Below, piece after piece: positions 3,477-6,481 of a stretch of 64,000 bases of DNA. Source of the stretch: Treponema sp. J25 (lineage in GTDB: Bacteria; Spirochaetota; Spirochaetia; Treponematales; Breznakiellaceae); NCBI RefSeq assembly GCF_004343725.1, contig NZ_PTQW01000037.1, positions 1-64,000 of the forward strand, read 5' to 3'. How positions within the stretch are numbered: position 1 is the first letter of the stretch; every line of letters starts with the position of its first letter. A program made the position numbers and the translations under genes. The notes beneath the pieces were generated by a model that was not told where the DNA came from, ran no database searches, and saw only the letters and a program-made list of their open reading frames with translations.

Positions 3477-4430
3477 TTAATTTCTCTTATTAGGAACAAT
3501 AACGGTAACCTCGCTATCTCTAAAATTAAAAATCCAATTAAACTGGCAAATAAACTCCATGCCAGCTAAAAGTTGTTGGTACGAAAAAAAATTCTTAAAC
3601 GAGACTATTCTGTAAACTGGAAAATAAGTTACTACTATGTTTCCAATCCTTATATCGATTATATCTTTCTTAACAACATGTTTTATTTCTTTACCTGATG
3701 TATAGAAAGTTCTTTCTTCTGCTCTTTCTTTTGATAATAGTAAACCAAATTCATATTTTAACACATATCCATCACTTCCCGTGTCAATTAGCATACGATC
3801 ATCATGATTTTCAAGTATTATTGGAATTTCTGAGGTTTGACTAATCGGCACTGTTGTTACTAACGTTGCATTATAGATTGGTATTTCTTCTTTATTTCTT
3901 AGCAAAAGCATTTTCTTATTCTCAAAATCAAGAATCATAATAAAATTGTTTAAGATGTTTCTACCGATAACTCCATCGATGGCATAGCCAACCGCTTTTG
4001 AATATTCTGACAAAGCAATATTTTTATCATCTACAAACCATTCTATTTCTTCTCCCTTGTAAGGACCAATAACAAAAGGTTCGTAAGTTACAATTCGTGG
4101 ATAAAATCTTATGTTCAATCGAGAACCACTATAATAAATAGGTAAAAGAAATTGATTCTTTTTTATTTTTATACCATCAATTACATAGGATAAAAGGTAA
4201 CTATCGGTAGATCCAGTATCGATAAGTAAATGTATTTTTTTTGAACCCAATAGTGCTTCGATAACTATAGGTTTATCTTTTTCTAGAGGGTTTGTAAATG
4301 ATGAATTAGAGGTTATATTTTCCCATTTACCACCACTACATGGATAGGGTATATAGCTCCCGATTATTAATACAAAGAATAGTACTAAGAACACTATTAT
4401 GAAAAAGAAGAGAACGTGTTTTATTTTCAT
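3477..4430 (-). CDS. Two-lobed retropepsin-like aspartyl protease, membrane anchored
   Basis: A 317-residue protein with an N-terminal hydrophobic helix (residues 7-28) that should anchor it with the catalytic part outside the cytoplasm. Two Asp-Thr-Gly motifs are present: LLIDTGSTDSY (Asp71) and MLIDTGSDGYV (Asp216). Each is followed about 70-80 residues later by a psi-loop type segment (GVIGRNIL and LLAGMEFICQF). Both lobes of a pepsin-like pair thus appear within one chain, whereas retropepsins dimerise from single lobes. The gene follows the double-glycine precursor gene by 86 bp and shares its orientation, so the precursor, the C39 peptidase or the barrel may be substrates or partners (inference). 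Codon use is strongly AT-rich. Confidence 0.8.
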   Translation of the reverse strand: MKIKHVLFFFIIVFLVLFFVLIIGSYIPYPCSGGKWENITSNSSFTNPLEKDKPIVIEALLGSKKIHLLIDTGSTDSYLLSYVIDGIKIKKNQFLLPIYYSGSRLNIRFYPRIVTYEPFVIGPYKGEEIEWFVDDKNIALSEYSKAVGYAIDGVIGRNILNNFIMILDFENKKMLLLRNKEEIPIYNATLVTTVPISQTSEIPIILENHDDRMLIDTGSDGYVLKYEFGLLLSKERAEERTFYTSGKEIKHVVKKDIIDIRIGNIVVTYFPVYRIVSFKNFFSYQQLLAGMEFICQFNWIFNFRDSEVTVIVPNKRN

Positions 4431-4879: not shown

Positions 4880-4924
4880 TATAGCACCTCCAGAAAAATT
4901 TTGTACTTCTGGCCAGAAGATGAC

Positions 4925-4959
4925 TTGATTATACCCCCCCCCCCCCGTGTTATTGTCAA
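4925..4959. promoter_or_regulatory. Divergent overlapping promoters with the G/C tract in the spacer
   Basis: Minus strand: TTGACA (4959-4954), a 20-bp spacer made of ATAACAC plus 13 G, then a perfect TATAAT (4933-4928), reading towards the precursor gene. Plus strand: TTGATT (4925-4930), a 20-bp spacer, then TATTGT (4951-4956), reading towards the C39 gene. Both spacers are 3 bp longer than the 17-bp sigma70 optimum and both include the whole homopolymer. The minus promoter is convincing. The plus one is a weaker match. Confidence 0.65.
4934..4946. repeat. 13-bp poly-C/poly-G tract, candidate phase-variation switch
   Basis: Thirteen consecutive C on the plus strand lie between divergent genes. 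Tracts of this length change by slipped-strand mispairing, and Treponema pallidum is known to control tpr genes through promoter poly-G tracts. Here a loss of three bases would bring both promoter spacers to 17 bp. The tract does not lie in a reading frame: the frame upstream of 4947 meets TGA at 4926. Confidence 0.8.
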
Positions 4960-4994: not shown

Positions 4995-5621
4995 ATGGCG
5001 GGGATTCTTTCTTTTCTTTTACTCCTTCAGCAAGTGCAGAGTCTTGAAACCCTGCGCTTCTCCGACGTGGCCGAGCAGGGTTATGATACCTCTTGTGGCC
5101 TTTCAGTCCTTTCGGACCTGGTGTCCCGCTACTGGAACTATTCCCTTTCAGAAGAAACTCTCGTATTTGAATGGCTTAGTATGAGGCCATCCTCGGAGCA
5201 GCCCCATACAAGCGACACCGGAAGAAACGAAGAGGACTACACCATCTCCTTTAAGGATATGCAGGATCTTTTGGCCCGCCATGGTTTTGTATCCAGGGGC
5301 TTTCGTTTTAGTTATGACCAGCTTGTAAAGGCCGCTCGGTCTTACGCTCCGCTCATTCTCCATTTTGCAGACCAGGAGGGACACTTTGTGCTCTGCCTTG
5401 CGGCAGAGGAGGACCTCCTCGTGATTGCCGATCCCGCAGAGGGGGTGTATTGGCTTAGCCGGGACGCTCTCCTTTCCCGGTGGCAGGGCTATGCTCTTTT
5501 GGTCCAGCATCCCACGCTTCTTAAAAACCAACCCGCCCTTGAAAGAACAGTACAGGAAGCCCATTCACGGGAAGAAAGTTTACAATTCCTTTCGAGGATC
5601 CATCGAGGAGGATACCGATGA
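4995..5621 (+). CDS. Stand-alone C39-family peptidase, probably periplasmic
   Basis: A 208-residue papain-like peptidase of the C39 family, which removes double-glycine leaders when fused to ABC exporters; here no ABC parts are present. Catalytic Cys lies in QGYDTSCGLSVLSDL (about residue 34), catalytic His in EGHFVLCL, and Asp in VIADPAEGVYWL followed by the WQGYALLV closing strand. The first 16 residues are hydrophobic and look like a short export signal. ATG 4995 has GGAGG upstream; a GTG at 4947 lies directly after the C-tract and lacks a ribosome-binding site. The architecture resembles FapD of the Fap amyloid systems. The stop overlaps the barrel gene by 4 nt. The divergent GG-motif protein is the likely substrate. 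Confidence 0.85.
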   Translation: MAGILSFLLLLQQVQSLETLRFSDVAEQGYDTSCGLSVLSDLVSRYWNYSLSEETLVFEWLSMRPSSEQPHTSDTGRNEEDYTISFKDMQDLLARHGFVSRGFRFSYDQLVKAARSYAPLILHFADQEGHFVLCLAAEEDLLVIADPAEGVYWLSRDALLSRWQGYALLVQHPTLLKNQPALERTVQEAHSREESLQFLSRIHRGGYR

Positions 5622-6481
5622 ATCAGAGAACTTTCACAAGGCTTCTCGCCACCTATCGGGTTTTTCTTGGTATGATATGGCTATTACGTCTAGCCCCTTC
5701 CCTCGAAAGCCAGGAAGCACCCCACAACCGTCTGGCGGTTCAAGAAAAGCGACCCTGGCAAAGTACCCTGGGCGCAGGACTTACAGTGCTTCCCATCATG
5801 CAGGGAGATACCCAGGCGATACTTTGTCTTGAATCCTCGGCAGATCTCCTGCTCAACCAGCGTTGGTACTTATCCCTTGGCTTTCCTCTCTATCTCCGCC
5901 TGCCCCTTACTACCACTGATATGGTTTCTCCTGTCATTGTTCAGGGAGATGCAAACATAGAAGCTACCTGGATAGGTCATACGAACCGGGGAGAGCATCG
6001 TCTTGGAACAAGCTGGACTTTCCCTACGGGGGTAAACGAAGGGGTCGCAGCCCAAGACGATACCATTCAGACCGGAGGCCTCCTTCACTACGTGGACATT
6101 TTTTGGCAGTATACCCGCTACACCGATCCGATAAGCCTTACGCTGGGACTCCGTCTTGGAACAAGCCTCCCGGGAAGCCGTGAGGGAACTCCCTACTGGG
6201 AACCTTTCTCTGTTGGACTTACTACGGGCCTCATGATGTTGATAAACCGGTCGGTTGCCCTGCAGACTCGCCTGATCCAGGGACTTGCTCTTCCACCCCG
6301 CTCAGGGGACCAGTGGCTTTCTACAACTATGAACTACGACGCTCGCCTGAGTGGTGGCCTGTGGTACACTGACCAGGAACATACCCTTTCCCTGGACCTA
6401 AGTCACAATATGGCACAGCCCCTCGAAGGTCTGACGATTTCTTTCCGGTATTCTTATACGGTAAAACCTAAGGAGCCGTAA
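5618..6481 (+). CDS. Outer-membrane beta-barrel, putative transporter partner of the C39 peptidase
   Basis: A 287-residue protein translated with ATGA overlap from the C39 gene. An N-terminal hydrophobic segment (about residues 8-30) may be the signal. After it come many alternating short strands with aromatic and Gly/Thr positions (LGAGLTVLPI, YLSLGFPLYLRL, HRLGTSWTFPTG, LTLGLRLGTSL, HTLSLDLSHNM) and a final strand FRYSYTV, as in barrel porins. C39 plus barrel gene pairs are typical of Fap-like systems, in which FapF exports the subunits. No coiled coil or plug domain as in FapF is evident, so homology is uncertain. Role inferred: passage of the processed cargo across the outer membrane. Confidence 0.65.
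   Translation: MNQRTFTRLLATYRVFLGMIWLLRLAPSLESQEAPHNRLAVQEKRPWQSTLGAGLTVLPIMQGDTQAILCLESSADLLLNQRWYLSLGFPLYLRLPLTTTDMVSPVIVQGDANIEATWIGHTNRGEHRLGTSWTFPTGVNEGVAAQDDTIQTGGLLHYVDIFWQYTRYTDPISLTLGLRLGTSLPGSREGTPYWEPFSVGLTTGLMMLINRSVALQTRLIQGLALPPRSGDQWLSTTMNYDARLSGGLWYTDQEHTLSLDLSHNMAQPLEGLTISFRYSYTVKPKEP

Follow-up and report, generated by a model that had tools for sequence, protein, structure and literature searches.

The stretch analysed in this study (the window, 64,000 nt of NZ_PTQW01000037.1 from Treponema sp. J25, whose 3.18 Mb genome is labelled G000 here) contains a tract of 13 identical bases, the sole G/C run longer than 8 within the window, which lies between a precursor peptide gene and a divergently transcribed C39 peptidase gene followed by an outer-membrane beta-barrel gene (Table 1). 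The same divergent arrangement was found a second time in G000, on contig C41, and in the nearest genus, g28, where it is present in G027 and G168 and twice in G157, so that the homologous set comprises six loci in four genomes.

Table 1. Features of the divergent locus in the window
Feature	Position	Strand	Remarks
Aspartic protease (PF13650)	3477-4430	minus	Downstream of precursor, probably on the same transcript
Precursor peptide, 120 aa	4517-4879	minus	Sec signal peptide, double-glycine-type leader (AVKGG), charged core
14-bp perfect palindrome CTTCTGGCCAGAAG	4906-4919		At predicted 5' end of precursor transcript
C39/barrel promoter, -35-like TTGATT	4925-4930	plus	In 5/6 loci; lost by deletion in 1
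Precursor promoter, -10 TATAAT	4928-4933	minus	Spacer 20; TATAAT in 4/6 loci, TACAAT in 1, lost in 1
Homopolymeric tract, 13 bp, C (plus) / G (minus)	4934-4946		Read from the sequence; homologous tracts in 5 other loci
C39/barrel promoter, extended -10 TGtTATTGT	4948-4956	plus	TGnTAyTGT in 6/6 loci
Plus-strand -10 hexamer TATTGT	4951-4956	plus	Spacer 20 from TTGATT
Precursor promoter, -35 TTGACA	4954-4959	minus	Identical in 6/6 homologous loci
Stand-alone C39 peptidase, FapD/FilB-like	4995-5621	plus	PF03412, 57 bits (cut-off 22)
Outer-membrane beta-barrel, FapF fold	5618-6481	plus	No Pfam match; AlphaFold2 and Foldseek

The window precursor matched no Pfam family, and its own core is charged, whereas a Gly/Ala-rich core would be expected of a class II bacteriocin; the corresponding family PF10439 was reached below the cut-off only. 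An alignment of the six precursors showed a conserved leader and a variable core. The leader ends in a GG-type motif in three of the six and in GKG or GEG in two, and this end is absent from the truncated copy on contig C41 (L021, 2761-2898), in which promoter and tract are kept, only the signal-peptide end of the precursor remains and a CPBP protease adjoins. The gene downstream of the precursor also varies among loci, being the aspartic protease in the window, the CPBP protease on C41 and other membrane proteins elsewhere; the aspartic protease, which had been proposed to switch along with the precursor, is not a conserved part of the locus. A conserved leader together with a variable core and a variable neighbour would be typical of bacteriocin and immunity cassettes, and the peptide putatively has a bacteriocin-like role, with a surface fibre as the alternative.

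In NCBIfam the C39 peptidase is closest to FapD and FilB, and against C39_FapD it reached E = 4e-10 and 39.3 bits where the equivalog cut-off is 330, which suggests a protein related to FapD and not FapD itself. The AlphaFold2 model of the barrel (pLDDT 80.6) had FapF (5o68) as its top Foldseek match (E = 2.3e-12, TM 0.70), and VIA-align gave Z 23.4 over 240 residues at an rmsd of 3.0, a shared fold that does not establish function. The Fap functional amyloid system of Pseudomonas likewise combines a C39 peptidase that stands alone with an outer-membrane barrel of the FapF fold; unlike in that system, only two Fap components were recognised here, the cargo is a short GG-leader peptide and the C39 score is well short of the FapD equivalog cut-off. 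The site of FapD activity is the periplasm (PMC5557850), and the C39 peptidase is presumed to be periplasmic as well. The route may be read as Fap-like, with Sec export, periplasmic C39 cleavage at GG and exit via the FapF-like barrel.

The original prediction placed the 13-bp tract between the -35 and -10 boxes of both promoters, with 20-bp spacers on the minus strand (TTGACA/TATAAT) and on the plus strand (TTGATT/TATTGT), and our reading of the coordinates and the arithmetic agrees with both statements. One tract is contained in both spacers of overlapping divergent promoters, as in loci of the hifA/hifB type, and since it is shared, the minus and plus spacer lengths must change together. 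The minus promoter matches the consensus at all 12 positions, with perfect hexamers and without a TG extension. The plus promoter matches at 8 of 12, four of six in each box, and although its hexamers had been named correctly, the extended -10 TGnTATTGT had been overlooked.

How far such an arrangement could arise by chance was examined for the tract and for the promoters separately. Extrapolation from the run lengths of the window predicted about 0.08 runs of at least 13 in the whole 3.18 Mb genome, and pattern searches for G/C runs found three; two of these are in the paralogous copies of the divergent promoter, and the third, a run of 18 C near the end of contig C53, has no recognised promoter beside it and was set aside. 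When the tract was fixed and the flanks were shuffled, a 12/12 promoter spanning the tract on either strand was obtained in 3 of 20,000 shuffles, and matches of at least 8/12 on both strands across the tract in 1,012 of 20,000 (~5%). Because a weak promoter pair on both strands is common in shuffles, the plus promoter is not supported by its consensus match alone and needs independent support, which comes from GTGnTAyTGTCAAG, conserved at each of the six homologous loci.

Comparison of these loci is informative for the tract as well. An assembly artefact was rejected because the tract is present at six loci in four genomes, and one of these genomes, G027, is assembled as a single contig of 3,239,340 bp. 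The tract is 13 bases long in the window and in G027, T plus 13 C on contig C41 (where the second C39 copy has 89% amino acid identity and the same divergent promoter), 8 and 9 bases in the two copies of G157, and an interrupted 16 bases in G168, reading CCCCCGCCACCCCCCC. The corresponding spacers at the five intact loci are 20 bp in the window, 21 on C41, 20 in G027, 23 in G168 and 15 in the 8-base copy of G157; in the 9-base copy of G157 half of the promoter, namely the minus -10 and the plus -35, was lost by deletion. Length changes are concentrated in the tract, and the remaining core of the six loci shows one large deletion only. Outside the tract, the promoter core has 89-96% pairwise identity among the five intact loci, against 62-68% for C39 coding DNA when the genomes are compared with each other; copies inside one genome reach 90% and 83%. 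TTGACA is invariant and GTGnTAyTGTCAAG is kept in the six loci, the n of TG-n-TAT (T, A, C, A, T, T) being its most variable base. Such a pattern is what two overlapping promoters would be expected to leave, and the case for the putative plus promoter rests mainly on it.

Slippage in the tract was originally proposed to cause reversible switching, with the tpr genes of Treponema pallidum as precedent. Control by poly-G length through the -35/-10 spacing is indeed established in T. pallidum, but in the published account the exact precedent is TP0126, an OmpW homologue, and not the tpr genes generally: poly-G is situated between -35 and -10 of TP0126, transcription peaks with a spacer of 17 nt, and of 17 further tracts with at least 8 bases, 76% are reported to vary in length (PMC7864442). 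As in TP0126 and in Neisseria meningitidis porA, for which the same source describes poly-G between -35 and -10 that sets the spacer with an optimum of 17 nt (PMC7864442), the tract of the window sets the distance between the boxes, whereas the TP0126 and porA promoters each control only one surface protein, in a pathogen, and the present tract, with 13 G and 20 bp, lies in the promoters of two units that diverge from each other and belong to a peptide export system.

We consider it fairly probable that the tract is a simple-sequence-repeat switch in the shared promoter region, bringing about slippage-based phase variation that affects the precursor promoter above all. Mispairing of slipped strands within the G/C run would alter the -35/-10 spacing, on which the precursor promoter, with its perfect hexamers and no TG extension, is expected to depend strongly. 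By the same logic as the 17-nt optimum of TP0126, this promoter would be weak at 13 G (20 bp) and strong at about 10 G (17 bp). Extended -10 promoters in E. coli need the -35 box less. The C39/barrel promoter may be less sensitive to spacing because of its extended -10, and would probably depend less on the tract. What speaks for a switch is that the tract lies in both spacers and varies among 8, 9, 13 and 16 bases between nearly fixed flanks; what speaks against it is that a spacer of 16-18 bp, including 17, is absent from every one of the homologous loci sequenced and that one tract is interrupted. Because of these two observations we infer the switching and do not observe it. Slippage within a strain, its transcriptional effect and the asymmetry of the two promoters are inferred likewise. 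In addition, a length of exactly 13 is seen in three of the six tracts, across two genera, a constancy not necessarily expected of a hypermutable tract; the interrupted tract of G168 would slip little; the plus promoter does not exceed chance by consensus; and more distant relatives that have the divergent genes lack the tract.

The claim that both operons are switched together is partly retained. In this sub-case of the switch, tract length sets both spacers and turns the precursor and export operons on or off together; the two spacers are equal by geometry and do change together, and in Haemophilus influenzae hifA/hifB one repeat also lies within two divergent promoters (PMC2651432), which provides a precedent, although that repeat is a (TA)9-11 dinucleotide in front of fimbrial genes and the present one is a mononucleotide G/C run with an extended -10 on one side only. 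However, the plus promoter matches the consensus at only four of six positions in each box, and its extended -10, TGnTAyTGT in all six loci, belongs to the class that needs the -35 less and may allow it to fire without a well-spaced -35. Joint switching of both genes is for this reason weaker than switching of the precursor; joint and equal switching is possible but weaker, and we regard the symmetric form as unlikely.

That the tract measures 13 at three loci, in two genera, would also fit a spacer of selected length, structural or for regulator binding, with activity set by a regulator that binds either the palindrome (4906-4919) or the CTTGA...TCAAG arms flanking the tract. The palindrome is a candidate operator or 5' hairpin: its dyad is retained in G168 as CTTCTGCGCAGAAG, with a symmetric change and a different centre, two other loci have one broken or wobble pair, and TTCTGGCCAGAA occurs once in G000, at the palindrome site. 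More distant relatives (L003 and L004, C39 37-40% identical) have the same divergent precursor, C39 and barrel genes and lack the G/C tract, with dyads in its place, and their intergenic regions (L003 1370-1520, L004 2030-2160) have in common GAAGCAACGCTTC plus an ACCACGTGG motif; the tract is confined to G000 and genus g28 among the genomes examined. Nevertheless, with spacers from 15 to 23 bp the CTTGA...TCAAG arms keep no helical phase, and as an operator they were rejected because their distance across the tract varies, the two -35 boxes being sufficient to account for them. A spacer of selected length seems improbable to us.

Poly-G is also found at the other C39-linked peptide promoters of G000. 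The genome has only three C39 loci, and all four leader-peptide promoters at these loci have TTGACA, then 6-7 nt, then 10-13 G; a reversed control pattern gave zero matches in G000. Runs of at least 10 number six in the genome, four of them being C39-linked precursor promoters. On contig C12 (L054, 844-5918, minus strand), two class II bacteriocin-like precursors (MNGFTEVSSLELEQIEGG...) accompany a C39 ABC exporter that scores above the TIGR01193 cut-off, and a duplicated segment of 275 nt lies ahead of both precursors, one copy before each. Their promoters consist of TTGACA, 6 nt, G10, TAGGCT and then TATTAT or TATCAT, with a spacer of 22. This ABC-exported pair is unrelated to the Fap-like system of the window, and its promoters are otherwise dissimilar.

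These promoters bear on the view that the tract is a neutral slippage relic without regulatory role, in front of genes whose promoters tolerate any spacer. Lengths from 8 to 16 are all found, one tract is interrupted and one promoter is half deleted, as such a relic would allow, and the absence of loci with an optimal spacer, which fits a mostly-off state, fits a functionless tract too. On the other hand, a G/C run is kept in all six loci at high flank conservation, and a similar run recurs in the otherwise dissimilar C12 bacteriocin-like promoters; we judge a neutral relic to be quite improbable.

Scanning 150 genomes of the family for TTGACA with G8 after it yielded about 30 tracts, and none of the examined matches outside G000, G027 and G157 combined a good, usably spaced -10 with a peptide gene, so a family-wide rule of TTGACA/poly-G peptide promoters was dropped. 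One family member, G041, has unusually many poly-C runs of at least 10 (62 overlapping pattern matches on 13 contigs). Shorter runs were noted at other genes. A lipoprotein gene of G000 (L059, G000:C14:150219-150227) has G9 near its start codon and a related one of G157 (L081, G157:C127:4102-4111) has G10, both out of frame at the assembled length relative to the lipobox-containing frame, and the two genes are likely to be a translational contingency locus. Upstream of a CheW-domain gene of G000 (L062, G000:C42:34786-34794), C9 is located between TTGATT and TATAAT with a spacer of 18, possibly another spacer tract, and a CRISPR-associated DevR/Csa2 gene on contig C13 of G000 (L058, 3576-5012) has a further C9 close to its 3' end.

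In Neisseria gonorrhoeae, GG-leader bacteriocin-like peptides of the nap island are predicted to be phase variable via homopolymers (PMC11798529); there the tracts are in open reading frames (napR, napC), whereas here the tract is in promoters. The literature covered by our search contained no account of poly-G in the promoters of bacteriocin-like peptides of spirochaetes, and a search on bacteriocins in T. caldarium found nothing. Returning to the switch that we favour, we tentatively suggest, at less than even confidence, that the leader-peptide promoters at the C39 loci each have an independent poly-G switch across two unrelated export systems, and that production of peptide toxins is bet-hedged. 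If so, a clone would be a random mix of producers and non-producers, with one tract shared by the cargo promoter and the exporter promoter at the Fap-like locus. Among treponemes, poly-G switching of promoters has been described for a pathogen and for surface antigens, and immune evasion is the usual explanation; its presence in other relatives, at every bacteriocin-like peptide promoter of a single genome, would suggest that the mechanism has a role in microbial competition too.
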